From the NCBI GenBank assembly GCA_006384855.1, contig VCJN01003252.1, positions 1 through 64,000 of the forward strand: 64,000 nucleotides of DNA, in the 5' to 3' direction. The notes below the pieces were generated by a model that did no database searches, was not told the DNA's origin, and was given only the letters and a program-made list of their open reading frames with translations. Every line of letters begins with the position of its first letter. The first letter of the stretch is position 1. The DNA comes from Tetraselmis striata. Lineage: Eukaryota; Chlorophyta; Chlorodendrophyceae; Chlorodendrales; Chlorodendraceae. Of the stretch, positions 1 to 53,010 are shown in pieces. The position numbers and the translations under genes were made by a program.

Positions 1-540
1 TTACTGGGCCACGTAGAAAGGGTCGAGGTGGTCGAAGTTGGCTATCGAAAGGTCGGCGGTGTAAAGTCGGCGGCGGTAGGTCAGGCGTGCGAGATCGCGG
101 GAAAAAGGCGAACAATGTCGGCTCTTACCGGGCCGACCGCCACGGTTCGTTCGACATAGCGACCGCATTGCTGACCTACAGGGGTGCTGAAACACCAAGG
201 GTGCCTATGGGAGTTGCAGTGGGGCTTCTGGGGCGTCTCGTGCCTGCACTGCGCTCTATCCGGAGTTCGAGCGGGGCCAGCGTGACACCAGATAGATTGG
301 CGCGATCCGCAATGACATAGTCAACATTAGCACGGCACACTGGCCCCATACTTGTATGCTAACAATGGGGCTTTGTGGAGCCCTTGCTTACATCATGTTT
401 TGGGCCCTAGCCCCCCCCAACTCCTCGGGGGGGCTCAGGGGCCGCAAGAGCCCCGGGCGTGACGGCTGCTTCCTTACTAGTCATAGACTCTTTTAGTAAC
501 AACAAGAGGTAGTGGAATAGCCGCACTCATCCCGGGGGCG
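1..540. other. no gene recognised at window start
   Basis: I see no convincing coding region here. Short open frames exist on both strands but show no motif, splice context or repeat partner. A G/C-rich imperfect hairpin (clusters of C then G) lies around 408-460. The stretch may belong to the mobile element whose tail follows, but nothing in the sequence shows this. Confidence 0.3.
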
Positions 541-654
541 AAAAAAGAAAAACCGCACCCATCCATATATGTAACTGCATCCATGCACCAACACTGTGGT
601 AGCAGTACGACCACACGTACCAGTAGTGATGATACGTGTGGTACGTGTGATCAG

Positions 655-850
655 TACTGCTACGTTGCAGGCCGCTTTTGAGCGGCTTGCTGTGTTGATA
701 TTTCGTGCTGCTTTTAGCGGTACCTGTAGTAGTGGATTGTAGAAGTGAACTATCACGTTCGTTCGCCACATCCGCGAAAGATGCCTTTGTGGTTAGTGTA
801 GTAGTGGATTACTGGCCTTTTTGCAATTCACACCAGTACGACCACGACGA
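655..850 (+). mobile_element. LINE-like 3' tail (copy Z), fragment
   Basis: The stretch shares an ordered set of short blocks with the 3' ends of the LINE-like copies at 32030-32130 (minus) and 44230-44350 (plus): a GCGGC hairpin, GCTTGCTGTGTTGATA, a GCTGCTTTTAGC block, then TACTGGCC and AATTCACACCAGTAC. Only the tail is present. A short internal duplication of GTAGTAGTGGATT splits the tail. The shared end followed by short GTAC/CCAG repeats suggests a 3' end family used for target-primed insertion; that last step is inference. Confidence 0.5.
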
Positions 851-1416
851 CCTATGTACGCCGGCGGCGGTACAGTTGGATTTTAGTGTAGAATCATGCA
901 GATAATCCACAGCAAACTATATTAAAATTCGAGCATTATTTAAGACACCCCGATTTTCCGTTCTGCGCGGCCCCGCACGCGTACATCGCCGCGCCGCGCC
1001 GCGTCCGGTTTCAGTTCGCATCTCACAACACCACCGACCCCACTATCACCAGCTCTGCCAGGCGCGGAACCTAGCAGATGAGGCCCAAACCCGGTAGACA
1101 CGCTCCTCACATATGTTTGACTGCACACTGGGGTTGGCCGGCCGTATGTTCGGGTGTTGACTCGCTCATCGGCCGTCGCGCGCGCGGTACCCGCCTCGGC
1201 GGGCGGGCGTAAATCGTTTTTATCCCACTCACTCACAACGAACCCCGTTGGGGGATGCGAAGGAGATCTCCACACCTCCCCGGAAGGTCTCCCGAGTTTG
1301 TTGTATCGGCAACATATACATGTTAGTGAGGTCGTCATGTTCTTGCTTTTTGAGTTACCGTCCTGTAACGTCCGCGATGTGTGTTCTTGTAGGGCACCCT
1401 GAAGGGTGGGTGAGTC

Positions 1417-2453
1417 ATGGCGTGCCTGATGTGCGCGTTTTGGGGCGCGCGGGCCGATAATGCGCAAGCCACTGGCGAGTGCAATGAGTGCGGTCACAGC
1501 CTCCACGCACAACTGGTGGTCACAGGGAACCTCGGCCGCGGTCCCTTCGTCACCCAGGTCGAGAGGCGGCTTCGGAAGTGCCGAGTTGGGACGAACTGGT
1601 TGACAAGCTTGGCTGGCCTGACCATCGAGCAGCTTCGGACCTGGGACGGCTTCTCGGACTGGCACAAGGTGGACGAGCAACACAGCAACAGGAAGAGCGT
1701 TCGGGACTTTCTCATCACGGACCTCTTGCTCATCACGAAGATAGCTTACCTTCATGGTATCCCCAAGAGCGCTAGACACAAGTATAGGGGGTTCTGGAAC
1801 GTGGTGGCAGACACCCCGAGCATAGCCATCCTGCTCAACCCTCATTTCATTTCTCACAGGTAAGGAGGCTGTGCCCATCACCCTGCTGGTGTGCAATGTA
1901 TTTTTGGCCGACTGTTGCGACTGACGGATGCCGCCTATGTGATGCCCTCCCAGGACTGATTACTTCCCAGACAGGGAAAAGTATGAAAGCCACACAGGAG
2001 GAGAGGACAGCCGGCACTTCAAGGTAGAGAAGGCGATGCTCCGGTTCAATGTGGGATCGCTTAATTATGTAAGGTCAATGCACCCTATGCAGGAGATTCA
2101 GGTGCCAGATGAATGGCTAGACATAGATAACTTTGCGGTGTGGCACGGTATTTGGAGAAGAACTGGATCCGACCCAGTTATTCCCCATTTGCAGCCCCAG
2201 TATTTTTTGCCAGAAAATCAGATGGCACTCTCCGGAAGTGCATTGACTATAGATCGCTAAATAAAATAACACTGGGCACACACTACCCTTTCCTGGCACC
2301 GTCCCGGTATCAAACCATATTAATAACCAGATTAGGGAGTTGTTCAATAAACCCGACGTGCTACAGTATCTGCCTGAAGGAATTCACTTTGTGGTGCAGA
2401 ATGTAGCTGCACGGGGCGTGAAGGATGTGGAGATAGTTGGCAATGAGGATTAA
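1417..2453 (+). CDS. transposon-associated protein with N-terminal cysteine pairs (unrecognised family)
   Basis: I do not recognise the family. A three-exon model reads through cleanly: 1417-1859, 1954-2137 and 2331-2453, with GT-AG introns and matching phases (2, then 0), ending in TAA. The first exon starts at ATG 1417 and has two cysteine pairs in its first 30 residues (CLMC, then CNECGH), which could bind zinc. The rest is open and unbiased, for example [11 protein letters not shown] before the first donor and [11 protein letters not shown] in the last exon. The second intron contains a small reverse-transcriptase fragment. The gene faces the minus-strand gene at 2544-4095 and both may form one DNA transposon. 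The donor at 2138 is less sure than the others (2148 is an alternative). The product would be about 249 residues. Confidence 0.45.
2140..2290 (+). mobile_element. Ty3-type reverse-transcriptase fragment (fossil)
   Basis: A short stretch encodes the segment of a Ty3/gypsy-type reverse transcriptase that runs from the WIRPS block to the DYRSLNK block, as in the complete element at 37.3-44 kb but clearly diverged from it. Only about 50 codons remain, so it is a broken remnant. It lies inside the predicted second intron of the plus-strand gene around it. Confidence 0.7.
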
Positions 2454-2543
2454 CTATATGTAATTACAATTGCTCCTGCAGAGTGAGCAGAAACTCATTC
2501 TGCAGCTCTGCGACTGTCTCTAGCAACCTGTCCCGCTTAACTT

Positions 2544-4095
2544 TCACTGGCCGTCCGGCGTAGGTGGTGCGGACCTCCGTAGCTGTGACTTGACTCCCCT
2601 GTCAAACCCGGGCAGGTAGGGGGGGGGGGGTACCTTGCAGCCAGGGCATCGATATGGTTCAGTGATGCCCCACTTCGCCCCATAAGCATGCGCACACATG
2701 TTTATGCGCAGATTAGATCTGCGCCTGGGTTTTGTCTCGGTTGTGAACTGGCACCGTAGAAATGATAGCTGGTGCTTCATGATCTCACACCAGACACACG
2801 GGTAGTTGCTCGCAGACCCGGCCAGCCCAAAGAACTCGGTTAGAAAGGCCAGGTCGCCGCCCAGGTAGAAGCAGATGGATATCAGACCAAACTTAGTCTG
2901 CAGGCCGTCCCTTTGCAGCCGCTCAAGGGTCTGTTTCACTGTCTCCTTCACCTTGGGCTCATTGGGATCCCCAGGGGCGTATGCAGGCACTGCATTCAGC
3001 ATCTTGTCGATCAGGTGATAGCTGTCCTTGCCAGCGTACAACATCGTCAACATGTTGTTGTCAGGGCTGTTGATGGCGTTGCCTGCCCTTGGCCTGACCC
3101 CACGCTGCCGGTACTTCATGCACAACGGCTTCAGCACCATGGCAGAGTAGTTGCGCAGGATCTTGTTTGAGGGGCGCTTCCTCCAGTTGGTCTTTCGGCA
3201 GGGGGGCACTCCTCCAGGATGTCCTCCACTCTTTCCCTCAGCACTATCTCTGGGCTGGCCACAGCTCCCTGACCCTCACAGATTGAGGCCATGCCATAGC
3301 TGCCTGCTGCCTCAGTCAACTTGTTTTTCATGGCGCCTCTGGCAGCTAGCTTTGGTGCATACACATTGAAACCAAGATGCAGCGGCAACCATCGCTCGAG
3401 CACAGGACAATACCATTTACATAAGGTGTTTATGATAGCCTGATAGCCCTCCATGTCCAACTTGCCATGGACAAATAGGGCACAACATGTATCTGTGGTC
3501 CAGTGCTGCTTCAACCGAGTGATGACTGTGAGGGCAGCCTTCCGCCTGATGTCGTGCTCCTCCACGATGTACTCCAGGACCTCCAGGTGCGCAGCCACAT
3601 AGGCCACCACAGCCAGAAGAGCCACTTTCCCACCGCTGCCGCCCTCGAAGCGCTCGTCCATGAACTCCTCCATATCACTTTTGTAAAGTGGTGCGAGTCT
3701 GGTGCGGGCTGACATGTCCTCGTCGTCTCGTGGCCCACTGCGCTTGCGGTTTCGAATTTGAATTTCTGCCTCGTCGCCATCTGATTCGCTGCTGCCCACT
3801 GCTGTCGTCGTCAGCGCCTCTAGCTGGCGCTCCAGCGCGTGCTGTGTGTCCAAAGCCTGCCGCCGCTGCTTCCTCATAGCATCTTTCAGGGAGGTGGTCT
3901 CTCGACCAGCCGCGCCACCTCCAGCCTGGTGCTGTCCAAGTCTTTTGTCTTCTTAGTGAGTACACCTTTGGCGGCATCGAGCTGATCAGCGATGGTCTCG
4001 TAGGTAGACTTGTTGGCAGTCCGAACAGCAGGCAGCCTCCGAGTGCTGGCCGTCTGAGGACAAGGCCGCCTCGAAGTGTTCTTGGTGAACGGCAT
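2544..4095 (-). CDS. putative DNA-transposon transposase with CxxC zinc motifs
   Basis: A long minus-strand coding stretch runs from ATG 4095 to the stop near 2544 in three frames. The N-terminal part (4095-3780) is helical and charged, likely coiled coil. The middle part (3700-3200) is open and unbiased. The C-terminal part contains GGDLAFLTEFFGLAG followed by a CVWC pair and later a CPGC pair, an arrangement seen in large eukaryotic transposases where a cysteine-rich insert follows an RNase H-like core; the exact superfamily is not clear (CACTA-like or KDZ-like are options). The two frame changes lie at a GA repeat near 3898 and at a run of six C near 3204, so both could be simple slippage or assembly errors. 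A poly-G run at 2619-2630 falls in a proline stretch near the end. The gene converges on the plus-strand gene at 1417-2453. Confidence 0.5.
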
Positions 4096-4099
4096 GGCT

Positions 4100-4760
4100 T
4101 GGCTGCGTGAAAGTGTCGGCTGGGGCTAGTGCTGTGAGCTGAGTGAGTGTGACTGTAGTTGTGCCGACCCGGAAAAAAAAAAGCGGCGGGAGGCCTTCGC
4201 GCTATCTCGCCATCCGACGAACCGGCACCACGGCACACGGCCCAGGGCCTCGGCACAACCTGCAGGACCCGTAAGGGCAGCCTGCTAACCTAGTTCGAGA
4301 CGTTTTGGGGCCCAGGGCTGCCCGGGGGAGGGCTGGGCAGCAGGCCTTCCTGGGCGCGCAAAAGCGCGCTTAAACATGCTAAAAGTTTTAATTTAGTTTG
4401 CTGTGTCCTTACGACCTGGTACCGTAAATAATACATTCAGGTGCTGTGTACGAGCGTTGTCACCACCCGCTACATGCCGCTGTGCCTGTTTGTACACAAT
4501 AATGCTTACAGCTGATGACTCATGATGACTAACTATAATACCCTGGGTGTATTAGTCATCATCCAGGTACCCGGCAGAGGTACCCCGTACCCTCTCTACC
4601 CGTCGCCTTCCTCGTACAGGTACCCGTAGGCGTCGTACAGGTAGTAGTTTGTTTTCCCGCCTACTCCGGAACAGGTAGTGTGGCAACAGTGAAACCCTTG
4701 ATGCAGCATCTCTACGACGGCCGTTTGGGCAGCGATTAATTTTCCAAAAGCCCTGCCTGG
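4100..4760. other. no gene; GC-rich repeat-like flank
   Basis: I see no coding region. The part from 4260 to 4370 is rich in short inverted G/C blocks (for example GGGCCCAGGGC and CCCGGGGGAGGG) and may be the end of the DNA transposon unit. The part from 4540 to 4700 has repeated GTACC/GGTAC words. Confidence 0.3.
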
Positions 4761-4762
4761 GC

Positions 4763-4935
4763 ATGCGACGCTCCATAATAGTCAAGAAGCAAATTGCCGA
4801 AGCAATCTGCAAGACTAATTGAAGGCCAGTGATGGAATTTCCAACACTGTTGGATCACCGTCTAAAACACTGCCATCAAAATACCCGACACTGACCACGG
4901 AAGGTCCGCCCGACCCGTTTGGGCGTCGGCCCATT
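4763..4935 (-). mobile_element. LINE tail fragment (copy 1)
   Basis: This stretch repeats the sequence at 6108-6276 with few differences: the block GCAAATTGCCGAAGCA, then GACTAATTGAAGGCCAGTGA, then CTAAAACACTGCCATCAAAA and GGTCCGCCCGACCCGTTTGG. In the second copy the same block lies inside the C-terminal coding region of a LINE on the minus strand. Here the match stops at 4935, where a foldback sequence begins. Confidence 0.6.
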
Positions 4936-4950
4936 CATGATTCGATTTTT

Positions 4951-5101
4951 TTTCGTGATTCGAATCACAGGTAATATCTGTGTTCGGGCAGGACTGTGCA
5001 TCTCGGCCTCCGGCCTCGCAGCCGGACCTAGCTAAGATGCTCATTCCTGCCCCGAACACAGATATATATAACCTGAGTGACTCGAATCGAGTTTTTCACC
5101 T
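4951..5101. repeat. foldback element of about 150 bp
   Basis: Two arms of about 60 bp are inverted copies of each other: ATCTGTGTTCGGGCAGGA at 4976-4993 faces TCCTGCCCCGAACACAGAT at 5045-5063, and the match extends outward to GATTCGAATCA against TGACTCGAATC. The loop is a short G/C-rich stretch. It begins 15 bp after the end of the LINE tail copy, so it probably inserted into or next to it. The structure is that of a foldback or MITE-like element; no transposase is present. Confidence 0.55.
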
Positions 5102-5804
5102 ACGAAATCCCGGATATTTCTGGACCCTGAAATCCCTTAATGGTACGAGACTATTCTCCCTCGTCCTGAAAACGCCATAAAGTACGCGTACTCGTAACCG
5201 CGCGTCGCAGGAATCTCATGATATCCGGGTGGGCAGACTGCCGCGGGCGCCAACGACAGAAGACAATAACGGCGCAGCGGAGGGACGAAGATCCATTGCC
5301 CTCCATCAGTCTCCACACTTTCTCCCATCCAGCGACACCCTTTCCCAACCGCCCACCGGAACCCTGTCGTCTGTCCTCGGTCACAAGAGAAGCGACAGCG
5401 CGTCAGTAGCCGAGGCGACCAAGGAGTGCTTGCCGCCGCGTTGCTGGCGATTCGCGAGTCTGGGTCCAGGACTACCGGGCTCTACTACATCCCGCTCGAT
5501 GCCGATGCACCGTAGTGACAAGTGGCGCCCCTACCGGTCACGCGCGGTGCTGTGTTTGTGCGAGATATGTTTGCATATGGCGCGGCCGATGTCTGCTTTA
5601 TTGCTTGACTAACATGCTGTTGGTAGCGACTGGTCGCTAGCACAATGAGTCGTTAGCTGAGAATGACCGCCTCGGATCCGACGTGTAATGAACTTTGTTG
5701 TACTTTGTTGATATTGCTTCCATTGTCTGCGACGGGTGTATCAACAATAGCAATGCCGCGGAACGTACAGCGGTAATGTACACGGGATTTCGTAGGTAAA
5801 AAAT

Positions 5805-32012: not shown

Positions 32013-34215
32013 CCACAGCAGTGGACAGGTACCAGAACCAGTACTTGTGTGAATTGCAAAAGGCCAGTAGTAACAAATCCACCTACTGCTAAAAGCAGCA
32101 ATGCTAAAAAACCAACACAGCAAGCCGCCTAGCAGAGGCGGCCCGCATCCCGCACGAGGCGGGATGGATGAGTGATCCGCGCACGGGTCATGGTCCGCCG
32201 GGCCGAGCGTGCACGTGTGTGCGAGGGTGATCCCCGGACGTGTTGTGCAGCTTCGGCAACGGGATTGGCGGACAAATCTGCGCCGTCTGATGAGGCAGCG
32301 ACCACGCTCTAGAGCTGCCACCAAGCTCGAAATCCTGAGGAAACCTCTTGCGAGTAAGGCATCCTGGTAGCCCGGGTTGTGCACCAAGTGCCCCACGATG
32401 AGAGGGCACCCCGATCCGCGGTCAAGCATGATATACCGCGCGCCATGCGGCGCACCCCTTGCTCGGCTCACCCACTGTGCCGAAGACCATGCCCGTGTAC
32501 TCCGACGTGATTGTCCAAGCAAGATGTCTCGAAGAGAGCCCCTTTGTCCGGGCTCCGTGTTGTGCCACGTACGCCGCATCTTGCACTGCCAACCCCCGTT
32601 TTATGTCGCCAAACAAGGAAAGGTCACCGATCCACACCCGTGGCCCGGGGCACCGAAGTGTACTAGACCCCGTACCGCATAGTCCTCTTGAACTTCGTCT
32701 GGTGCGTTGGCTTCAAGCTCCCGGGATCATAGCTCCCGGTCACGACGTTGAACTTACGCCAGGTGGGAGGTCTCTGCGTCCGGCCCTATGTCCTTGAGTT
32801 CATCCCGGGGTACGGTGATGCCGACATGTACTGCATGCCGGAATAACAAGATATCCACCTCCCGGCGTACAACGATATGCAAGTCGTGAACACAATGATT
32901 CATCGCGGAAGGCGGCTTCGATAGCGTCGTGTTGTACACGCTGGTGAGCCTCTCCATGCACCATGAGCGCGTCCCTATAGAGGTCGACAGCAACGCGGGG
33001 TTGTGCTTTGTCGAGGGCAGAATGCATGATCTGGCTCATCCCAACCACCGGGGCCATGCATTTGGGCTAGGCAGACAGAAGTAACTACCCGGCAACGACC
33101 TCCCGCAGCTCGTCATGCGTAGTCACGACCGTCCGCGCGTTGGGATGGCCACCGTCCACATGCCCGACGTCGCGTCAAGCTAGCCGAACAAGATCATTTT
33201 TCTACATGTGACAGGGGGAGTGCCCACCTCATTCTGAAGCCTAGAATAGTTTTTGGCCTAGTCTAGAAATGCTGTCGGCTCCTTTTGCGAGCCAGACGCA
33301 GCCTCCGTCTCCCACTCAGTCGTCCATCACGCGGGCATCACGAATCCATCACGCGGGCATCCGCGTCGCTACTCAGGTGGCTGGTTGTAGCCGCCTGAAG
33401 GTGGCCCAACGCCTCGCGCACCGCCGCGGCGTAGCTAGCCGACCCACGACCATCGTTGAGGAAGTGGTAATACCGGCGGGTGGAAGAACTTGCGGTGAAG
33501 CTGCCTCGGCCAAGTACGGACTCAAGCTTTAATTGGGTCAATGAAACCATACGGCGGGTGCGTGGGGGTGTTACTGTGGAGTTCCTAGTGCTGCGGAACC
33601 TTGGGAGGGCGTACATGCAGCCGATGAAGGCGGCATCACGAACGATAGCCATGCGGCGGATGCTTATTGTGCATGTCAACCGAGTGGGGAGGTGAAGCTT
33701 GCTACGCGCCCTGGCCACTGCATCCTCGCTCAAAGGAGCCGCCCCCGTGGGATCATGATCGTGCAAAAGCTCCGCCAAAAAATCGGTCAAGGGCCACTGG
33801 GTTGGTGTCGGTGCCGTACGTGTTGGAGGGATCAAAAGAGACCCCTAGCATCCGCTTGACAACCGTGAGGACGACGGTATCCACCGCCTCCGCGAAGGCC
33901 TCCACCTCGGACGAGAGGCAAGTGCGAAGCATGTACCCCGTGTTGAATGCAATGCTTGAGCACGACGGCCCATGCGTGGTGATGCATGGCGTGGGTGATG
34001 TACCGCCGGCTGGGGTTGGCAGATAGGAGCGTCTTTAGGCTGGCATCCACCTCCTCTTGTAGCTCCCCCGCCTTGCCGCGCATGTAGGCATGCACATCCC
34101 CTGGCGATCCGAGCGGCACGTTGAGGACCGGGATGCCGTGGTGGTAGCACATGTGTGAATTACCAGAAAGGCTAGTGCAAAGTGGCATGACTGGCGGTGT
34201 GAATTACAACAAGCC
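32013..34215 (-). mobile_element. LINE-like retroelement, copy X, 5'-truncated
   Basis: Read on the minus strand, the segment after the reverse transcriptase core is recognisable: HGIPVLNVPLGSPGDV near 34130, then a segment resembling the thumb and post-thumb (NPSRRYITHAMHHH, AAFIGCMYALPRF), then VRREVDILLF and GITVPRDELKDIGPDAE at 32900-32770, and a 3' end with two G/C hairpins and the tail AATTCACACAAGTAC at about 32045. Stops and frame changes are frequent. From 33000 down to 32030 it matches copy Y (36770-37277 continued at 43972-44350) in the opposite orientation. A TIR-like repeat abuts its 3' end. The catalytic core itself is not visible, so the label LINE-like rests on the downstream motifs and tail. 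Confidence 0.55.
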
Positions 34216-34750: not shown

Positions 34751-37277
34751 AATTTTCGTATTAATGTCCTTGTACAATACGCAATAATATGTTTTATTTA
34801 TTGTTGACAACGTTGCGTCGCCTACCCATGGCTTTCCGTAACTGGATCGGTGTCAAAACGGCCGTCGTGGAGACGCTGCAAAGCAAGGGTTTCACTGTTA
34901 CTAATCTTGTCCCGGGGGCGAATAAGTTTTTACATCGTCAACAGGCACCGTGGCTTGACTACATCACCGATGCGAGGATCACTTTTGGTATACCAGCCCA
35001 GTACCAGTGCCCGTATATATATTTTCGTCCTGGCCGCTAGGAGTGCCCGCCACCACCAGCGGCCGAGCGGCCCCGGAGGCGCCCCGGGGCCGTGCGTCGC
35101 CATGCCTCAACCGCCGCCCAGACCGCGTAGCTGCCCTCAACCCCCTCCCACGCGACGGCACCGTTATGCCCGGGCTGTGGCGGGTCGCTTGTATCCGGTG
35201 GGGCGCCGCGCGATGTTTGTGCCTTCCGCCAATATGGTGCGGCGGAACACGCCGTTGACCCCGGGTCGCCGCCGCCCCCCAGTACATCCTTCAGTACATC
35301 AGGCAGCCCCGGCGCATCGCGGGCGGGGGGAGCGTCGCCCGTGGCATCGCCTTCCAACGGTAGTGCGCCCGGCGCCACCCAGCCAAGGCCGAGCCCGCCC
35401 GCGCCGCCCTCGCTTGCTGCCCCGCGGGCTCCCACGTACGCCCAGGCGGCGAGCCGGTCGTCGAGTAGTCCCGAGTACGCGACGGGCGTGGTAGGTACGA
35501 CCGGCGCGCGCTGCCTCGCCTGCGTCGTCACCTCGCCGCAGTACTTTCAGCAGTATTTCGGGGCCCGGCGCGTCGCAGCGCGATGACGACGGCGTTCCGA
35601 CCGGCCAGGAAGTCTCCGAGCGGCCCAAGCCGCGGTCGCGCGGTGGAAACCGCCGCCTGGCGCTCACCGGCCTCGATGCTCTCGCCCGCCGCATTCCAAG
35701 CTACACGACAGCGGGCCGGCGCGGCGGGGCGTGGCGCCGGCAGCGGCTCGGGCAGTCGCCGACGCGCTTTCAGTCGATGGCGTCGTCGCGGGCGCCGTCG
35801 TGTGGGCGCCGAGGATCGACGCCACAACCAGGTCGCTCCAACCCGCTCGCGTCAGGCACCACCCGGCCGACGTGGTGGCCTTCGCTGAGGTAGATCGCCG
35901 TTGCGTGGCTAGCCAAGGCGCGCCGCGTGCGGGCCGAGCGGCACCGCCGTCGGGGGGCGCGGCGCGCCGGTGGAGCGGGACAATTGTCAGTGCTGTCGTC
36001 GCCCGCATTGCCGTCCATCGCTGCGTTCCGGGGCGTCGTAGCGCCCCCGGTTGTTGCTCCCGCGCCGCCAAAGGAGGGCGCACCGGCCGGCCGCCCCGGT
36101 AGCCTGGCCTCACGGGCTCGGTATCGTCCCCCCACCCCCCCTCCCTACTCGCCCATCTCCAGCCGGCGACGGGTTGGGGTGGGGTGCGGTGGACCACCTC
36201 TCCGACGTGGACTTGGTGCACATGCCGGCGGAGATGTCCATGGAGACGGCGGTGCCTATCGACTTTCAAGAAGCGTGGGCGGAGGCACAACGCTCCGTGA
36301 ATAAGCGGGTGGTGGCGGCAGTGGAGGCCGATGACCCCGTGGTGTTGGATAGGGCGTTGAAGTGGAAGTACATGCTGCCGCAATTTTTGCTCATGACCCC
36401 GGGTCGAGGCATGTGGCGGCGGCAACAAGCCTTGGCGTGGCGCTTCCGCGCTCTCGCCGAGCGGCGCATGACCGAACTCATGCGCTCATGGGACGACGCG
36501 CGCTCCGAGGCGCTCTACGCCGGACATGCCCGCCAGCGTCGAACGGACGTTGACCTCTTTGCGGCGCTACTCGTGGGCACCGCGGACACCGTCGTGGCGT
36601 TGGTGGAGGACGGAGAGCTCTCCCGAGCGGCGGGCCGACTATCTTCTAAGGGTATGGGCGACCTATCCGATCCTCAGCCTTGCACTGTCTCCTGCTTTCC
36701 TCGCCCAGCTGCACGACAAGCACTAGTCCCGGTGAACGCCGCGACATGTACGGCGACGCGCTCATGAACCTCCCGGCACCGGGAGACGCCCAATGGCGTG
36801 TACAAAACGACGCTATCGCAGATGCCGTCCGCGATCACTATGTTCACGACATGGGTATCGCCGTACGCCGGGAGGTGGATGACTTATTTTAGCATGCAGT
36901 GATTCTCGGCGACACCGTACCCATGGACGAACTCAAGGACCTAGCGCCGGACGCAGAGCGCTTACTCCCGGCGTTCAACGTCGTGACCGGGAGCTATTAT
37001 CCCCGGAGCTTGAAGTTCACGTTGCCGGAGTTCAAGACGACTATGCGGTACGGGTTCAAGTACACTACGGTGCCCCGGGCCACTAACGGATGTGGATCGG
37101 TTTGAGCGCTCCTTGTTTGACGACATAAAACGGGGGTTGGCAGTGCAAGATGCGGCGTGGCACAACACGGAGCCCGGATAGAAGGGCCCTCTTCGAGACA
37201 TCATGGATATGTCGGAGTACATTGGCATGGTTTTCGGCACAATGGGTGAGCCGAGCAAGGGGGTGCGCCACAATGTG
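34750..37277 (+). mobile_element. LINE-like retroelement, copy Y, 5' part (internally deleted)
   Basis: A plus-strand frame begins near 34834 (MAFRNWIGVKTAVV) and is followed by a very GC-rich, proline/serine-rich segment with a CPGCG word. An RT-upstream module lies at 36230-36720 (QALAWRFRALAERRMTEL, ALVEDGELSRAAGRLSSKG, DPQ...AQLHDKH), of the kind found before the reverse transcriptase in algal retroelements. Directly after this, near 36740, the sequence jumps to the C-terminal part (REVDDLF, DTVPMDELKDLAPDAE) that copy X has far downstream, so the reverse transcriptase region is missing. The element then matches copy X until 37277, where the Ty3 element interrupts it; it resumes at 43972. 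Confidence 0.55.
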
Positions 37278-37689
37278 TGTTATACTCCATTTCCCTATAG
37301 CCATAATGTTCTGCTATACTAGCAGGTATAACCCCCGCAAAGGTAGTACGACTACGCATCCGCGGAGTCGCTGTACATATTAGTATTGCGGGCGTAAATA
37401 TTAGTAGTATAAGGCCGAAGACTGTTCTGGAATTCTCTAGAGTTCTCTGACTCAAGCCTTACGTGGCTAACACAGCACGGGTATCCCATGACACCCGGCT
37501 AACATAGCACAGGTATGACTATGACCTCGGCGGGTATAAATACCGCCTCGGACAAGTCTACTAGGCAGAATTCAGAGACAGAACTATAACCCAGGAACCC
37601 CTGTAACCAGAAGAGATTGGCCATACTTTCTAAATCCTTCCGCTGCATCCTAAAGGGCCTAAAGAACAGGCTTAAGCTAGAGCCTAACA
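37278..37689 (+). repeat. 5' LTR
   Basis: 412 bp, TG...CA ends, with a TATA-like word GGTATAAATACC near 37533 that probably drives the element's transcript. It is near-identical to the 3' LTR. Confidence 0.95.
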
Positions 37690-37728
37690 CTTGGTTTCGG
37701 AGCTTAGACAGCGGTAAGCGACGTAAAG

Positions 37729-38889
37729 ATGGCTACACCAGGAGAGACACCACCTGAGGATAGCGGAAGCTTTCCGGTAGCGGCCACTGCCGGCGAAGCA
37801 CAGCCGATTCCGCTTGAAGGAGGTCAAGAGGGCACGCAACCGACCCTCGTAACCATGATGAGCATGCTTCAACGACTAGCCGACCGAGTCGAGACTATGT
37901 CGACGGAGCAAGCGAGGATGCAAGATGTAGCGCAAGCTACAACGGCGGCAACGGCGGAGATTCGCCGCTTGGACGAGTACGTGCGACAAGGCTTCAGTCA
38001 TTTCGACGACCGAGTGAACCGGAGCCGAGTTGTAGAGCAGCAGATGCGAGACCAGCTTCGTTCTGCCCGGACCAGTGACATGCCTGGGCTCATGCCGAGC
38101 GATGTGAAACCAGCGAAGATCGAGAAGCTATCGACTACGAATATCGACGAGCTACGGAACTGGTTTCGTCATGCACGGGGTTACCTGAAATATCACAATG
38201 TAAACCCGGAGGAACCTCGTAGCGTGTACTGGGCATCTGGCTATTTTCACGGACCCGTATCCAAGTGGTGGTACGCGCAAGTGGCGAGTACGCACGACGA
38301 AATTGGCGGCGGTTTTACCGGTATTACGCACATGGAGGCGGCACTAATCACTGAATTCTGTGGACGTACACCGGCGAAGCAAGCTCGTATCAATCTGGAT
38401 CGCGCGACACAGCGGACTACAGTACAGAAGTACGCGAATTATTTCCGCGAGCAACTACTGGAGTTACCCCATCGTCACGAGGAAGATAATGTACATGACT
38501 TCCAGCGCGGACTGAAACCTCATATTCGAAAGGAAGTTGCCCTGAAAAACCCTAAGACCCTGGCAGAAGCTGTACAGGCAGCCCTGGCTGTTGAAGCTGC
38601 GGAGCGGGAGACAGATGTGCACCGCGAGATCCGTCGCGAGCGCCTAAACATCATGGACGACGATGGCGACGACGACGAGCAGTACTACAGCAGTGCTGAG
38701 GGTGAGACTACAGAACAAGAAGACGACCTGTTGATGGCGCGGCGATTGACCGAGGAGGAGTTTGAGAGATTCAAGAAGGAAGGTCGCTGCTTTATCTGCA
38801 GGGCGAAAGGTCATGTTGCGTCCGCGTGCCCGAGCAAGAAGAAGAAGATTTCTGAATATCGACCCAGAAAGACCCGGCCGGGAAACTAA
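37729..38889 (+). CDS. gag of the Ty3 element
   Basis: An open frame of 386 codons. It has an N-terminal acidic and helical part, a capsid-like middle (retrotrans-gag type, around NWFRHARGYLKYHN and FYWASGYFHGP-like sequence), and a CCHC zinc knuckle near the end (CFICRAKGHVASAC). By family it forms the particle shell that packages the element RNA. Confidence 0.9.
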   Translation: MATPGETPPEDSGSFPVAATAGEAQPIPLEGGQEGTQPTLVTMMSMLQRLADRVETMSTEQARMQDVAQATTAATAEIRRLDEYVRQGFSHFDDRVNRSRVVEQQMRDQLRSARTSDMPGLMPSDVKPAKIEKLSTTNIDELRNWFRHARGYLKYHNVNPEEPRSVYWASGYFHGPVSKWWYAQVASTHDEIGGGFTGITHMEAALITEFCGRTPAKQARINLDRATQRTTVQKYANYFREQLLELPHRHEEDNVHDFQRGLKPHIRKEVALKNPKTLAEAVQAALAVEAAERETDVHREIRRERLNIMDDDGDDDEQYYSSAEGETTEQEDDLLMARRLTEEEFERFKKEGRCFICRAKGHVASACPSKKKKISEYRPRKTRPGN

Positions 38890-39029
38890 GACGTGAGTCG
38901 GCCGCGCGCGGCGCGCGACAGGGTGAAGGACTGTCCCCTAAAACGGCTCGCGAGACTACAGAAGTACAGCCCTCGTATCCTCAAACGACACTGAGGCCTG
39001 ATTTCCTCCACAAGGATTTCAGCGACTGG

Positions 39030-42000
39030 ATGGTACATCGCGAATTATTTCACGAGTACACGAAGAAATACGGACCCTGCGACCTGGACGGAGCTTGCGA
39101 TAATGACGGCCTGAATTCTCAAGTTTCTGGTAGTTTTTGCTGTCCGACGCGCCCATTTCAGGAACAGGATCTCGGAGAATATCGGCGTATTTGGCTAAAT
39201 GCCCCGTATGACCGAATTGAAGAATTTTTGGGCCACTACCTTCGACAGAAGTTATTGCATCCGCATCTACGAGCAATTATCGTGGTCCCAAAATGGTCGC
39301 GTAAGCCGTGGTTTCGACTACTGAGAAATTTTCGTCTGGTGGATGAGTTGCCAGCGGAGACTTCTGTGTTTACGTGTCCAACGAACGATGGCATAGAAGG
39401 TGCGAGACAAGATGTTGGCCCCACTCGATGGGCGACACAGATCTACGCTGACGATGGCGCCGGCGTACGGTTTCTACCGCAGCACCTGAGAACCCCACCG
39501 AAGCCTGAGTGGACGCACTCGAAGGTTCTAGTAACCGATGGAAGACGAGTGCTTCTGACTGTAGAAGACAGCGGACTGATTTGGTTTCCAGAAGGCAAGC
39601 GCAGCGACACGGACGCGACGCCGGAGACAACAGCAGTACGACGATTACTCGAGCAAACTGGGTACCGGGTACAGGAGAGCAATCTACGGTACCTCGGCAC
39701 TCAGCGGGCGGGAGACAACCGGTGTCCTGTATACCTGTATCGCGCTCGTCGTAATACTGTACCTACGAAGACCCCTTTGAACCGTGCACTATGGACAACC
39801 TGGAAGAAATTATTGGAGGCACGAAGTACGGGTTATCTGGAGACGGAGACAGTACGCTACCCACTACGGTATGAAAGCTTCGGCGAACAAATTGATGAAT
39901 ATGTCAACCGTAACGTCCGACTACCTGGCGAGGACTCCACATCGCGTTTGTGCAACGTATCTTCACCGAGTGGTACCCGACTGCTAACTATTACTGGCGA
40001 ATTGCGAGGACGACACTGTAAAATACTGGTGGACTCTGGTGCAACCGAAAATTTTGCGAGTACCGAATGGGTGCAATTGCATCAGTGCCCTACAGTATCC
40101 GGAGGAAAACACCGTATAAAACTGGCGAACGGCAGTATGAGTACCAGTACCAAACGGCTGAGGAGCGAAGTACTTACCGTAGGAGCTTTCGACTATAAAT
40201 TGGACGCTATAGTTACAGACCTGGAGAAATTCGACATTATTCTCGGACAACCTTGGCTGGAAACAGTTAATCCTGACATCGACTGGACTGCTAAAATTAT
40301 TAAACACCGGAAGACTGGACAACACATTGCTACAGCGGAACAGTATACAGTACCTACGACGGTTTACCACCTGGACGCGGCTAAGATGGCGAAGGAACTG
40401 AGGAAGAGTCGCGGCGAGGAACTGTTTGCTGTTGCGGTACGCGAGGTGTTCGATGCGGTAGCTGAGCTGCGCACGGACCAGTCGACCGAGTGGACCGAGG
40501 AGCTCAAGGAGTCCCTTATGGAGTTCGCAGACATCATCGCGGAGCCTACTGACCTGCCACCGGAGCGTGAGTTCGACTTTGAGATCAACCTGGAGAGTGA
40601 TGAACCCCCCAAGGAACGAACGTACCGTATGTCACCAGCGGAGTTGCAAGAGGTACGGTCACAACTGGAGGAATTGTTGGCAAAAGGGTGGATTCGTCCG
40701 TCCAAGTCAAACTACGGCGCCCCAATTTTATTTGTGCGTAAGAAAGACGGCACTCTGCGTATGTGTGTGGACTACCGTAAATTGAATGACCTTACGAAGA
40801 AAGACCGGACCCCGCTTCCTCGTATCGACGAATTATTGGACTCATTGCATGGTGCGAATATTTTCAGTACTCTGGACCTGTACAAAGGCTACCATCAAGT
40901 ACGAATTAAACCGGAAGACATCCACAAAACAGCGTTCCGGACACACTATGGACTCTACGAGTACTGTGTGTTACCTTTCGGCTTGACAAACGCCCCAGCT
41001 GGATTCCAGACTATGATGAACCGTGTTTTGAGCCCATATCTCGGCAAATTCTGCGTGGTATACCTGGACGACGTGCTGATCTACAGCAAGACAGCTGAAG
41101 AGCATCTCGAGCACATCAGATTGGTGCTACGGGAGTTGCAACGACACCACTTGCATATCAAGCTGTCGAAGTGTTCGTTCGGCGGTACTAGCGTGGAGTT
41201 TTGGGCCATATCGTCGAAGCAGGACAGATCAAGATGGACCCCCGGAAGGTGGAAGCAGTTCAACAGTGGCCCGTGCCGAAGACAGTAAAGGACGTACGAG
41301 GTTTTCTCGGCCTTGCTGGCTATTACCGCAAGTTCATCCATAACTTCGCGGCTATTGCGGCGCCACTACATGACCTGACGAAGAATCAACCGGAGTTTGT
41401 GTGGACGCCTCGTGCTGATGCAGCGTTTCGTGCATTAAAGGACGCAATGGTACGAGCACCTGTACTGAGTATACCGGACACATCTGCGGACGCCCGTTAC
41501 ACATTGTACACAGATGCTTCTGGATTTGCAGTGGGAGCTGTGCTGCTGCAAGATCAAGGCTCAGGACTTCGACCTGTCGCGTACCATGCACGCAAGATGA
41601 ACAAACACGAAGTTCACTACCCGGTACATGAGCAAGAGTTGTTAGCGGTTCGTGATGCACTCATCAAGTTCCGATGCTACCTTGATGGAGCGGCGGGCTT
41701 TACGGTCATCACCGACCATGACACGCTACGGCACTTCTTTCGCCAACGCGATTTGTCGACGCGGCAAGTACGATGGCTGCAAGTGTTTGCGCCTTACCAA
41801 CGACATATGGACATCGTCTACAAGCGAGGAGCTGCCAATCATGCGGACGCCCTCTCTCGGCGACCCGACTTGAAGGATGCGCTACAGAAGCTAGATCTGC
41901 TGAACAACTGGTCAGAAGACGAGGCTGACTGCGAAATAAATTCAGTTTTATTTGCTATGGAGTCGCGACTACAGGCGGACAACAAATTTTACGACGAAAT

Positions 42001-43474
42001 CAAGACCGCATATGACTCCGACGAGTACCTGAAATCGCGGAAAGCTTTACCATCCTGGCTAGTACGTCACAGTAATGGTCTACTGTACGCCTACGGCTCA
42101 CGACTTTACGTACCAAATGTGGCGGACCTGCGACAACGAGCACTGTATGAACTACATGACGCGCCTACTGCTGGACACCCAGGAGGACGACGACTACTGG
42201 CGCGTACTGTGGAACTGTACTGGTGGCCCCGTATGAAACAGACTGTCACTAACTACGTGCGACGCTGCCCTACCTGTCAACGTACTAAGGCGGCCCGGCA
42301 TAAGCCATACGGCTTACTTCAGCCCCATGACGTACCGTCACGACCATTTGAGGTAATATCCCTGGATTTAATCACAGATCTTCCGGAGTGCCAGGGGTAT
42401 GACTCAGTAGTGGTTTTCGTATGTCTACTGTCAAAGCGAGTAATTGTTGAGCCAACTACGAAGACAGTTACTGCTGAAGGCTTGGCGGAGATTATGCATC
42501 GCTCAGTTTTTCGTCATTTCGGCCTACCGGCTAAACTCATCTCTGACCGAGACCCCAGATTTATGTCGGAACTCTGGCAAAATATGTTCAAGACCATGGG
42601 TACTAAGCTGAACATCTCTACAGCTTTTCATCCAGCAACCGATGGCCAGACGGAACGCACTAACCAAACTTGGGAGCAAGTGCTACGCTGCTACGTGCAC
42701 CCCCTGCACGATGATTGGGTCAACCACCTCACCAACGTGGAGTTTGCGATCAACGCTGCTCAGTCGACTTCGACTACTATGTCCCCTTTCAAGGCGACTT
42801 TGGGATTCGAGCCGACTACACCTGCTACTACTCAACTCGCAACCGAGCCAACTCGAGCTCTTCCGGAACACGTCAAGTATGTACAGGAGCTTCATCGCTT
42901 CGCGCATGATTGCGTACTGGAGGCTCAAACTCGTATGCAGACTGCAGCTAATCGTAAACGACTACCCGTACCATTCAAGACCGGCGACAGAGTTAAGCTG
43001 AAGGCGTCTCATCTGAAGTTTATTCAGCAACCCTGTGCTAAGCTACGCGATCGCTACGTGGGCCCCTTCGTCATTACAGAGCAGATCTCGCCAGTTGCTT
43101 TCCGATTGCAACTACCTGCGGGCGTACGAGTCCACGACGTGGTGCACGCGAGTATGCTGGAAAAGTGGTATGACGACCCTGACCAACCGGCGAAGTCTGA
43201 ACGAGTACCGATTGTCCACGACGCAAACCGATTCCATGTTCAGGACATACTCGATGTTGCCTTCAACAACAATGGCACTGGACTACTGTTTCGAGTACGA
43301 TGGGCGTTCCCGTACAACGTACCAAGCGAAGACACCTGGGAGCCCCTACGCGGAGTCAAGCACTTGGACATTTTCCGGTCGTTCTTACTGTCTAAACCAT
43401 ACCGACAGTTTACTAAGAGCCCAGACTTCATTCGGTTCCGGAATCGCTACCCAAGCCGAGTACCTTCCGCCTGA
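39030..43474 (+). CDS. pol of the Ty3 element (MTase-like, Nudix-like, PR, RT, RH, IN, chromodomain)
   Basis: First comes a domain with CDLDGACDNDG and, about 50 residues on, WLNAPY and IIVVPKWSRKPWF, the pattern of the adenine methyltransferase-like domain known from DIRS-type and other retroelements. Next is a Nudix-like segment at about 39520-39750 (KVLVTDGRRVLLTVED, then WFPEGK and RRLLEQTGY). Then come the aspartic protease (LVDSGATENF), reverse transcriptase (YRMSPAELQEV to YLDDVLIYS), RNase H (LYTDASGFAVGA), integrase (HHCC finger with CPTCQRTKA, catalytic core beginning ISLDLITDLPE) and a chromodomain (FRVRWAFPYNVPSEDTWEP). The frame probably starts upstream of the first ATG. The pol region shows about one break. 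The chromodomain suggests insertion guided by modified histones. Confidence 0.9.
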
Positions 43475-43554
43475 ACTTCAAAATCAAGACTGTAGTTTCC
43501 TGTAGTTCTGTGACACCTGCACAGCGAGGACGCTTGTGCTTAAGGGGGAGAGAG

Positions 43555-43966
43555 TGTTATACTCCATTTCCCTATAGCCATAATGTTCTGCTATACTAGC
43601 AGGTATAACCCCCGCAAAGGTAGTACGACTACGCATCCGCGGAGTCGCTGTACATATTAGTATTGCGGGCGTAAATATTAGTAGTATAAGGCCGAAGACT
43701 GTTCTGGAATTCTCTAGAGTTCTCTGACTCAAGCCTTACGTGGCTAACACAGCACGGGTATCCCATGACACCCGGCTAACATAGCACAGGTATGACTATG
43801 ACCTCGGCGGGTATAAATACCGCCTCGGACAAGTCTACTAGGCAGAATTCAGAGACAGAACTATAACCCAGGAACCCCTGTAACCAGAAGAGATTGGCCA
43901 TACTTTCTAAATCCTTCCGTTGCATCCTAAAGGGCCTAAAGAACAGGCTTAAGCTAGAGCCTAACA
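43555..43966 (+). repeat. 3' LTR
   Basis: 412 bp, near-identical to the 5' LTR (one difference seen). A purine-rich tract lies directly upstream, and ATGTG follows as the target-site duplication. Confidence 0.95.
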
Positions 43967-43971
43967 ATGTG

Positions 43972-44365
43972 CGCAGTGTCGCATGCTTGGCTGCAGATCG
44001 GGGTGCCCTCTCATCGTAGGGCACTCGGTGCACCACCCGGGCTCAAGAGGAGGCCTTACGAGATGTCCTCGGGGTCCTGAGCTTGGTGGCGGCTCGAGAG
44101 CGTGGTCACTGCCTCATCAGACGGCGCAATTTTGTCCGCCATCCCGTTGCCGAAGCTGCACAACACGTCCGGGGATCACCCTCGCACACAAGTGCACGTG
44201 TGGGCCGGACTCATGCGCGCATCACTCATCCATCCCGCCTCGTGCGGGATGCGGGCCGCCTCTGCTAGGCGGATTGCTGTGTTGATCTTTTAGTACTTTT
44301 TTTAAGCAGTAGATGGGTTTGTTTTTATCCTGCTTGTGATTCACACAGCCAGTACCCGTACCACC
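43972..44365 (+). mobile_element. LINE-like retroelement, copy Y, 3' part
   Basis: This continues the sequence broken at 37277. It matches copy X (32440-32040, minus) through CGGGGTGCCCTCTCATCGT, the GCCTCATCAGACGGCGCA block and the two hairpins CATCCCGCCTCGTGCGGGATG and GCCGCCTCTGCTAGGCGG, then ends with a TTCACACAGCCAGTACC tail. The element's end is thus near 44365. Confidence 0.65.
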
Positions 44366-49455: not shown

Positions 49456-51443
49456 ATGGCGCCGGCGGGCCGGCTGTGCGGCCGCCGCGCCTCGCAGCCG
49501 AGGCGAGGGCTGGCCGCCCGTGTGCGTTCCAGTCCGCCTCGGCAGTCCAAGATGACGCCGGAGGAGGAGCGCTTCCTCCAGGAGCAGGTGAACCGGCCTC
49601 GTAATTGGCGCCCGACCACCCGCAAAAGAGTAATAAAACCCAAAACAACTTTCTTTTTAGTAGAATAGCGCGACTGAATGAGGCGAACGCAAGCCCGAGG
49701 AGGGGCAGCACACCTGGCGGAACAGGTGCTTCGGCGGGTTTACCTGTAGAATGGCGAGGCAGAGTAGGAAGTTGGACACATGCCGCAACACTGGGCAGTC
49801 CTTCTGCGGGAGTCGGCCTGTCCCGCCCCGCCGCCGAATCGCGGGTCTCGCACGGCGCGCCCTGCCGAATTGCCCCCGCCTGCGCCCCCCCCCCCCCCCC
49901 CCCCCCCCACCCCCCCACCCCCGCCCCGCGGAAACAGCGTTGCCTTCAGGGCTCGCCTAGATGGCGCCATTCCGGCTTGTTGATTTAAATGTTACGTCGC
50001 GAGTGCGTTGATATGCTTCGATTACGCCGTGTGTATATATTCTATAATATGTATATAAAGTATGTATGCTGGTTTGTGCCTATATTTATACACATAGGGG
50101 GGGGGGGGTAGAGAGAGTGCTCTTGCATGTGGGCATCCTCAAGCGGCGCAGTGATAACACTAGAGGGCTCAGGGGCAACAATTCAGGCTGATGGGGCGTC
50201 TGCCTGCATCAGCATCTTGATTTGAAAGTGGGGGCCTGGGGAGCTGCGGATGGTCTGCTCCGGCGACATTTGCAATTCTCTCAACCTATGCCACGTCCCT
50301 TCTCTCCGCTCTCCCTCGTCCTGCCCCTCCGCCTTCCGTGCCAGCTTCCACATGCAGCCGACCCCCCCCCTCCCTTGCGCGCAGAACCAGGAGCTGCGCA
50401 TGATGCAGCAGCTGAGCCAGGAGTGGTGGAAGTTCGACTCGCCGGACATGGACCCGGAGCACATTGAGGAGCGGCTGCAGCAGGAGTCGGTGGATCCTGA
50501 GACCGTGGCGGCGCTCGTGCTGGGCGGCGGCACCGGCGATGGGCTCTTCCCTCTCACCGAGGTCCCCCCCCCCCCCCCCCTCCCCCCCCACCCACCCACA
50601 CAGCGACACCCCTGGGCAACCCGTGTCCGGCTGAGCATGGCATGCAGTGGGGTTGGTGGTGGTGGTGGTGGGGGGGGGGGGGCATTGATAGTTACGGCAT
50701 GGGGCGCGCTCAACATCGCCGCTGCCGGGCAGTTTCTATTCAAGCAATGCGGCCCCTTTTGCCGGGCGCTGCCCGCGGTGTCCCCTGCTGAAGGTGGCGC
50801 GCTCTGACCCGGGCGGTGGCTTGTCTGCGGGGCGGCGCAGAGGATGGCCAAGGGCGCGGTGCAGATCGGGGGCAGCTACCGCCTGATCGACATCCCGCTG
50901 AGCAACTGCATCGCGTCCGGCATCTTCAAAATGTACGTCTTCACGCAGTACAACTCCTCGCTGCTCAACAACTACATCGCGCATACATACGACTTTGGCT
51001 ACTCCTTTGGCAAGCGTGGCTTTGTCGAGGTGCCCCCCCTCCTCCCCTGCCCACATCACCCTCCAACCCATCACTCCCTTGTGTCATCATGGCCGCCACC
51101 TGCCACCGGGCGGCGCCTGAGCGTGCCGGTGCCTGCAGGTGCTGACAGCCACCATCACGCCCGACTCCACCGACTGGTTTGGCGGCACAGCCGATGCCAT
51201 CCGGCAGTACGCCTGGGGTACGTGCTGCCCCTCCAGCACCACCACAACCCCCGCTGCCCACATACCTGCGCGCGCCTCTCGACCCATTCGGTAGAGCGAC
51301 AGCAGGCTGAGCCCGCCCAATGGCATCCCGGCGGCGCGCAGCGGTGGACACGCGGCGCAACCGCACAGTCGAGGACATCCTCATCCTCAAGACGGACCAC
51401 CTGTACGCCCCCCCCCCCTTCCCATCTCTCCATGAGATGCGCG

Positions 51444-51477
<34 letters not shown>

Positions 51478-53010
51478 GGGGGAAGGGGAGCAAGGGCATA
51501 TGCGGGGAAGCTGCCGCTGTCGCTGCTGCTGACATGGCTGCCGGTGCCCCACCTCCTCCCCTCCCCCCCACCCCTTCCCCTGGCCGCCGCAGCTACCGCA
51601 TGGACTACCGAGAGCTGGTGCTGGCGCACCGCATCTCGGGCGCGGACGTGACGCTCTGCACGTACCCCGTGGACGAGCAGGCGGCGTGCAAGATGGCGCT
51701 GGTCCAGGTGGACAAGCACGGCCGCGTCAAGGTGCGCCCCGCAGCGGGCGTGAGCCAGCCGAAAGGAAGGCAGCTCGCCTGGCGGCGCCGTTGGATTGGG
51801 GGGCCGCGTGCGTTCATCTGGACGTGCATCAGAATACACTGTGGTCATAGCACAGAATCCCCGACTCGATGCCATTGCGAAACCGTTCCCTGTGGCTGTG
51901 CCCCGCGAACCCATAACATTGCCGGATGGCAGCAGGCCGCGTGCCTGATGATATAATAACGCGTCGCAATCGTTAACGTAATCTTATCGCTGTGCACCGG
52001 TACGCATTCCTGTATTGTTATCCAATTTCACACAACGCACGTGTTCTCCTAATAAGATGGGCAATACAAAGTCGGAAATGTACTTGGTGCTACACTGAAT
52101 CGATGCGCAATATGACTGAGATTTACCTGTCGGATTTCTTTCAAAAAAAGGCAAATTACCAAGGCATTTCTTTTTCCATTAGGCTGTTTATATTCGATTC
52201 TAATTGCCGCACTTGGATCCTAGTATAATGGATAATACAATGGCTTTCCTGCAACGGAAGCTGCAAAGCTGACTCAAGCTGAACTGCAGAGACCACAGAG
52301 GCCGGCGGGGCGCAGTAAGAAAGTGTGTACATGAGAGCTTTTTGGAGCCGTCTGATGCTACTATCTGAACGGCGTCCCGGTTCCGGCATCAGTTCGTCTG
52401 AATATCGGATGGATACCTTCTTCCCATGGACTGTCTTTGCGCCCTGCCAGCAGCCGTACTCGTAGTCGGAACAGGACGCAGGCCTGGAAAGGGAGGGGTT
52501 GGGGTTGATGGCGCTCAGGGGCAGCCTGGCCGCCGCCGCTCTGCGCCACTGCGCACCCTTCTCGCCCATGCAACGCGACTAAGATGTGCCCAACCAACCC
52601 TGGGCGCTGACGGCCGGGCGCTGCGAGCCGCCGGTGCAGAAATTCGAGGACAAGCCCACGGCGCGCGGGTACTCGTACAAGGCGATGGGGCACGCACCGG
52701 GGTACCGCCCCCCGGCGACGCGCGACGCCACGATGCTGGACAAGAGCCTGCAGGTGGACGGCGCGGCGTACGGTGCGCACCTGCAGCTGCCCAGGAGCTC
52801 ACTGGACTCTTGGCTTGAACCGTGGCCGGGACGGCGGGGTCTGTCGTCCGCAGTCAATGGAGGAGACCTAAACTCACCACCTGTTGTTGATCCTGTTGCT
52901 GCGTACCCTGTTTTACGTATTGTGCATTGAGATTGACATACGGGTGAACGTATCATTGCTTTATTCGTTAGTGTCATTTTTAGGGACTGCGATATAGGTA
53001 CATTGATGAG

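Follow-up and report, generated by a model that had tools for sequence, protein, structure and literature searches.

A Nudix-derived domain next to a Dam-like domain and before the protease in a Ty3/gypsy retrotransposon of Tetraselmis striata

Results

Organization of the element

The window is a 64,000-nucleotide stretch of the Tetraselmis striata genome (assembly GCA_006384855.1, contig VCJN01003252.1, positions 1 to 64,000 of the forward strand), and its positions 37278-43966 hold a Ty3 element flanked by long terminal repeats (LTRs). The pol region of this element carries two domains ahead of its protease, a Dam-like methyltransferase domain and then a Nudix-derived domain, followed by the protease (PR), reverse transcriptase (RT), RNase H (RH), integrase (INT) and a weak chromodomain match. 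The Nudix-derived domain recurs across copies and relatives, mostly with altered catalytic residues. The features of the element are:

37278..37689, + strand: 5′ LTR (412 bp), preceded by an ATGTG target-site duplicate at 37273-37277
37729..38889, + strand: gag, with Ty3 capsid and zinc knuckle (Ty3_capsid E-value (E) 2e-8; Retrotrans_gag E 1.3e-5; zf-CCHC E 0.0056, below cut-off)
38880..38886, + strand: GGGAAAC, candidate -1 ribosomal frameshift site, adjoining the gag stop codon TAA; pol lies in the -1 frame of gag
39009..39470, + strand: Dam-like (N6-adenine methyltransferase-type) domain, with its NAPY motif at 39198-39209
39525..39812, + strand: Nudix-derived domain (PF00293 E 3.1e-6; hhalign probability 94.9%, against no more than 1.6% for any of 60 decoys)
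39594-39665, + strand: Nudix box, GKRSDTDATPETTAVRRLLEQTGY, inside the Nudix-derived domain
39990..40301, + strand: aspartic protease with VDSGATENF (RVP_2 E 2e-8; Asp_protease_2 E 1.1e-7)
40734..41201, + strand: reverse transcriptase (RVT_1 E 7.8e-36)
41402..43363, + strand: RNase H, integrase (H2C2, rve, SH3-like) and weak chromodomain
43555..43966, + strand: 3′ LTR, with the ATGTG target-site duplicate at 43967-43971 after it

The two LTRs (412 bp each) have the same base at 411 of 412 positions, with one mismatch, and the ATGTG duplicate stands at both ends; the element is a recently inserted Ty3/gypsy retrotransposon. In the window copy the pol frame is interrupted close to where the RT match ends, and dozens of other copies keep pol open. 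The Pfam matches within 41402..43363 include RT_RNaseH (E 1.6e-29), Integrase_H2C2 (E 8.7e-20) and SH3_Tf2-1 (E 9.1e-16), and the PR-RT-RH-INT order of Ty3/gypsy elements is present, with PR, RT, RNase H and H2C2 above their cut-offs and rve below (E 2.3e-7). The chromovirus label given to the element in the original prediction is tentative and depends on the C-terminal chromodomain-like match (PF00385, E 0.017), which at 15.5 bits falls below the 25.1 cut-off.

The frame from 39030 to 41288 is open and contains the four strings on which the two domains had first been proposed (WLNAPY, IIVVPKW, WFPEGK and RRLLEQTGY); in the 752-amino-acid (aa) frame that starts at 39030, the protease match (RVP_2, residues 329-424) comes after the Nudix part and RT comes next. 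Both domains had been assigned to 39030-39760 and both lie there, with wider limits: the Dam-like domain starts before 39030, and the Nudix part extends beyond 39760, to about 39812 by profile alignment and to about 39900 by conservation with P0001, a relative found outside this genome.

Relatives and the recurrence of the domain order

Relatives were drawn from the protein sources of JGI and ENA (P0001-P0080). The protein P0001 (860 aa) matches 99% of the 317-aa Dam and Nudix piece at 58% identity and has a protease and RT behind it. A profile built from the window and P0001 retrieved 20 further proteins in a search that scored only the 7999 candidates sharing most words, and a six-row Nudix profile returned 71 rows, made up of nine proteins already found, 59 new ones (P0022-P0080) and P0081-P0083. 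The last three contain PF00293 and fall short of significance (E 0.49 to 4.7), and P0080 is reached at E 0.2 only, leaving 79 relatives at E < 1e-3.

Among all 80 relatives, P0080 included, the Dam piece is matched by 29, the Nudix piece by 69 and the protease piece by 13. Dam and Nudix occur together in one protein in 24 cases, Nudix and protease in seven, and Dam, Nudix and protease in one frame in three, which is the same domain order in other elements that the original prediction had proposed to look for. No protein with Dam and protease and lacking Nudix was found among the 80, many of which are short pieces. By eye, the family forms about six branches: the window; P0001; P0002; P0009 with P0006, P0036 and P0054; a large P0003/P0010 group; and P0007 with P0011 and P0064. 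In P0021, the Nudix piece runs into Dam sequence that looks DIRS-type by eye, possibly a nested or chimeric element.

The Dam-like domain

An hmmscan of 39030-39980 places the Pfam Dam profile (PF05869) at residues 4-96 of the 39030 frame (E 7.1e-5, 23 bits). Scores in the window range from 21.3 to 24.9 bits and do not reach the curated cut-off of 28.1, while the relative P0019 exceeds it with 34.4 bits; the proposed methyltransferase-like domain is supported, with the window copy itself remaining below the Pfam cut-off. A further match, to an NCBIfam phage N6A methylase, is far under its cut-off (E 0.024).

The catalytic motif of Dam and N6-adenine methyltransferases is [DNS]PP[YFW]. The family departs from it, with NAPY in 36 of 37 fetched copies. 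The remaining copy, L077 (G000:C230:77500-80500), has NPPY in its place. Among the relatives, NAP[YF] occurs in 11 of 15 readable motifs, the other four are NALF, HPPY, IAQF and NAQF, and none has NPP; strings from P0026 and P0068 were false matches and are excluded from this count.

Further, the genome holds a second Ty3 family (L071; G000:C31:46000-52000, 535-5136), with a 1534-aa frame, an RT 48% identical to that of the window and a Dam-like domain ahead of its protease (26% identity, E 4e-12; motif NPVY). In L071 the Dam-like match ends at residue 289 and the PR match starts at 364, and there is no significant L071 match to the Nudix part of the window (best E 3.3, elsewhere in L071). Since L071 has a Dam-like domain and lacks the Nudix match, the Dam-like domain is the more widely shared of the two, and the Nudix domain was either gained by one family or lost from the other.

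The Dam profile has at least 151 matches in this genome. Two frames of the genome look DIRS-like by eye and have Dam-like domains (L072, motif NAPF; L073, motif NPPF), and another Dam-like frame (L076; G000:C719:39500-42500, 203-928) has NPPF and an extended lead.

Descent of the Nudix-derived domain

The profile search that had been suggested as a check puts the Pfam NUDIX profile (PF00293) above its cut-off and, as noted, Dam below. In particular, the same hmmscan matches NUDIX at residues 166-240 of the 39030 frame with 27.7 bits (E 3.1e-6; cut-off 21.1). The relative P0009 also exceeds this cut-off (29.7 bits), and P0002 reaches 42 bits (E 1.2e-10), with RELFEETGY, the full box spacing and only the first glutamate different; this protein, which is truncated at its C-terminal end, also aligns with Nudix chains of solved structure (AP4A hydrolase, E 1.6e-4). 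One source database names P0005, P0009, P0059 and P0063 as NUDIX-family pyrophosphatases. An NCBIfam match of the Nudix part to YtkD is far under its cut-off (E 0.0029).

A profile of the window, P0001, P0007, P0009 and P0010, from which P0002 was excluded, was compared by hhalign with seven Nudix domains of the same assembly and gave a probability of 94.9% over 93 columns. A repeat run scored 50.3 over 52 columns; among 60 column-shuffled decoys, the highest score was 18.0 and the highest probability 1.6%. Some of the seven assembly domains could be bacterial contamination, which leaves the decoy test unaffected.

Could the segment resemble a Nudix domain by chance or convergence, without being one? 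Such an explanation would draw on the departure of the window box from consensus, on the P0001 piece alone staying under the PF00293 cut-off (E 0.0051), and on a scan of ten whole relatives at E 1, where only P0002 and P0009 have a NUDIX match and P0003, P0004, P0005, P0006, P0007, P0010, P0012 and P0019 have none (P0006 and P0019 are truncated within or ahead of the domain). AlphaFold also modelled the Nudix part with low confidence (predicted local distance difference test, pLDDT, about 34-61); the first six Foldseek rows obtained with this model are Nudix chains at E 0.013 or worse. The relatives, P0002 foremost, and the decoy control together exclude chance resemblance for practical purposes, and we give it next to no probability. 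As P0002 retains the full glutamate triad, the domain descends, by its sequence relationships, from a real Nudix enzyme, and both the Nudix identity and the domain order of the original prediction hold. Profile-profile comparison found no donor of the domain.

Altered box glutamates

The window departs from the catalytic box GX5EX7REUXEEXGU, and P0002 agrees with it except at the first E. In the window box (RRLLEQTGY), E53 and E57 are replaced, removing two of the three glutamates that hold metal; the equivalents of E53 and E57 are needed in MutT. With the window included, E53 is kept in 2 of 62 sequences, E56 in 55 of 62 and E57 in 1 of 61, and only P0002 has the full triad among 59 complete boxes. 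These counts omit P0081-P0083, and a single large group supplies most of the rows, which are not independent observations. Counted by branch, one of roughly six has an intact triad. Within this genome the box is readable in 35 of 37 copies: 32 fetched copies have one box in common, from which the other three (the window, L063 and L067) each depart.

These replacements bear on a reading in which the domain is a working Nudix hydrolase with altered metal ligands, cleaning the nucleotide pool (for example, of oxidised deoxynucleoside triphosphates) for reverse transcription. The strong NUDIX match and RELFEETGY of P0002 speak for it, as does the retention of E56; the replacement of E53 and E57 in the window, and of E57 nearly everywhere, speaks against it, and its probability is low. 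Most likely, judging from the residues, the Nudix domain of the window family and of most relatives seen no longer hydrolyses. The earlier suggestion that the domain may bind rather than cut gains weight from the near-absence of whole triads.

Copies in the genome and selection

The 317-aa Dam and Nudix piece has at least 125 matches in its own genome at 97-100% identity, and these, with the 79 relatives, show that the segment is not a chance insertion unique to one copy, the outcome that had been named as refuting the original prediction. A 1539-aa open frame is present in 49 of the 125 matches listed (counted by hand), and one of the 49 has a TAG inside the match. A search of this genome with the Dam piece of P0019 gave at least 150 matches in a narrow score band.

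The ratio of nonsynonymous to synonymous polymorphism (pN/pS) was calculated across 36 copies, including the window, after the far more diverged L063 (77-83% identity) was dropped. It is 0.36 for Nudix, 0.29 for Dam, 0.22 for gag, 0.17 for protease and 0.12 for RT, where 35 of the 36 copies had been selected for similarity to Dam plus Nudix (30) or to the NUDIX profile (5), a choice that biases the ratios of both domains low. The 39-codon linker has a pN/pS of 0.73 in the same copies. Between the window and P0001, identity is 60% for Dam, 58% for Nudix, 47% for protease and 83% for RT, and the runs WTHSK, TDGRRVLL and NLR.LGT of the Nudix part are common to both.

These values also bear on a second explanation, a decaying passenger, in which the Nudix domain was acquired once, its activity is irrelevant and it survives as a spacer between the Dam-like domain and the protease. 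The triad is incomplete in 58 of 59 full boxes, the Nudix ratio is the highest among the named domains, and the L071 Ty3 family of the same genome manages without a Nudix domain, all of which such a passenger would explain. However, the domain is better conserved than the protease between the window and P0001, shared runs persist in it, and its ratio, in this biased sample, is well under 1 and half that of the linker. Overall, we regard the passenger as fairly unlikely.

The Gag-Pol junction

The string G GGA AAC consists of the last two sense codons of gag and the preceding base, and is followed by TAA; we take GGGAAAC to be of the type used in -1 frameshifting. The sequence GGGAAACTAAG was found in 35 of 77 fetched loci, some of which stop short of this point, and the old copy L063 is among the 35. 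The pol frame is open from the 39030 ATG back to the end of gag and the Dam-like part begins before that ATG. Upstream of it, ESAARG, PQTTLRP and KDFSDW recur, slightly altered, in P0003, P0014, P0016 and P0018, and this common stretch fits a Gag-Pol fusion and not a new start at 39030. The RNA 3′ of GGGAAAC has a folding energy of -28.6 kcal/mol (z -0.95), and 31 of 200 shuffles fold equally well or better. With the fold energy this near to that of shuffles, the frameshift is graded as likely only: as read from the sequence, a -1 frameshift at GGGAAAC probably makes the Gag-Pol fusion.

Neighbouring sequence

Inverted repeat arms lie at 32104-32441 and 43971-44293 of the window, about 12 kb apart and 85-93% complementary in four pairs; one arm begins at the element's 3′ target-site duplicate. 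Positions 50844-51956 hold a piece of an ADP-glucose pyrophosphorylase, nearest to chloroplast subunits (E 1.8e-24), which points to a green host that makes starch.

Discussion

The reading we favour, with somewhat better than even confidence, is that a Dam-bearing algal Ty3 lineage acquired a Nudix domain, whose glutamate triad was lost in most of the branches seen and which was retained as a binding module. Both domains are conserved with altered catalytic residues, and they may for this reason grip RNA or nucleotides, and not modify or cut them. The fusion would be a Gag-Pol protein in which the nucleocapsid zinc knuckle is followed by a Dam-like domain, a Nudix-derived domain and then the protease. 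Placed near the zinc knuckle and beside the motif-altered Dam-like domain, the Nudix domain would probably grip RNA or nucleotides in the particle. Such binding may contribute to the choice of genomic RNA, or to positioning or supplying reverse transcription.

The binding role is suggested by analogy with the pseudo-Nudix protein CFIm25/NUDT21. In the portion of PMC3695940 consulted, CFIm25 has a Nudix fold in which box glutamates are missing; it shows no hydrolysis and binds both nucleotides and RNA. CFIm25 is a cellular polyadenylation factor, unlike the domain of the window, and the two are likened by description; by this analogy the Nudix domain may be a binding module of the same kind.

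Several observations weigh against a retained binding module. The Nudix pN/pS is the highest among the named domains and the choice of copies biases it low; P0002 keeps the full triad, so catalysis has not been lost everywhere; and many of the relatives in the large group are short pieces or degraded, and do not count as independent. Moreover, the hairpin behind the frameshift site is no stronger than its composition predicts, and the sub-threshold P0001 piece, the eight relatives lacking a NUDIX match and the low-confidence fold model point the same way.

Two further readings involve RNA 5′ ends. In one, a cap-adenosine methyltransferase-like domain and a decapping-type Nudix domain would form a cap module that once edited RNA 5′ ends and now recognises them, marking the RNA of the element; we hold this to be quite improbable. 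In the other, which is speculative and unlikely, the algal Ty3 lineage would carry on Gag-Pol a paired pseudoenzyme clamp that recognises RNA 5′ ends or caps, to tell apart or protect its own RNA, with branches of the P0002 type having a working Nudix enzyme.

Compared with the Ty3/gypsy chromoviruses (Metaviridae), the element shares LTRs, a zinc-knuckle gag, the PR-RT-RH-INT order and a C-terminal chromodomain-like match, and it differs in the additional Dam-like and Nudix-derived domains between gag and PR and in a chromodomain match below cut-off. The second Ty3 family L071 is alike in having its Dam-like domain before PR and differs in having no Nudix match. DIRS elements carry the same kind of Dam-like domain; there it sits after RT/RNase H, and a tyrosine recombinase is used, whereas in the window it precedes the protease of an integrase element and has the Nudix domain next to it. 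The part of PMC6338049 consulted names DAM domains in DIRS and reports that green algae are among the groups with Ty3/Gypsy and DIRS elements encoding DAM and DCM. An orchid Ty3/gypsy element with an AlkB-type N6-methyladenosine demethylase, as described in the consulted part of PMC9289625, is likewise a Ty3 capture of an RNA-modifying-type domain, and differs in its additional open reading frame, its other fold and a domain called functional in the title. The word nudix is absent from the consulted parts of PMC6338049 and PMC9289625 and from a 300,000-character portion of PMC9148063, other papers retrieved with the term use it for something different, and no report of a Nudix domain in an LTR retrotransposon was found in the literature searched, with subscription journals mostly outside its scope. 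The Dam-like part is thus of a known kind, and the Nudix part appears unreported as far as that literature extends.

The finding would extend the set of accessory domains fixed in LTR retrotransposons by one of Nudix descent, and it shows that two Ty3 families in the same genome have a Dam-like domain before the protease. The relatives provide a natural series, from the complete triad of P0002 to altered triads, along with a Nudix-free Ty3 family in the same genome, and this series makes it testable what a retroelement gains from a Nudix domain, and whether it is catalysis or binding that is kept.
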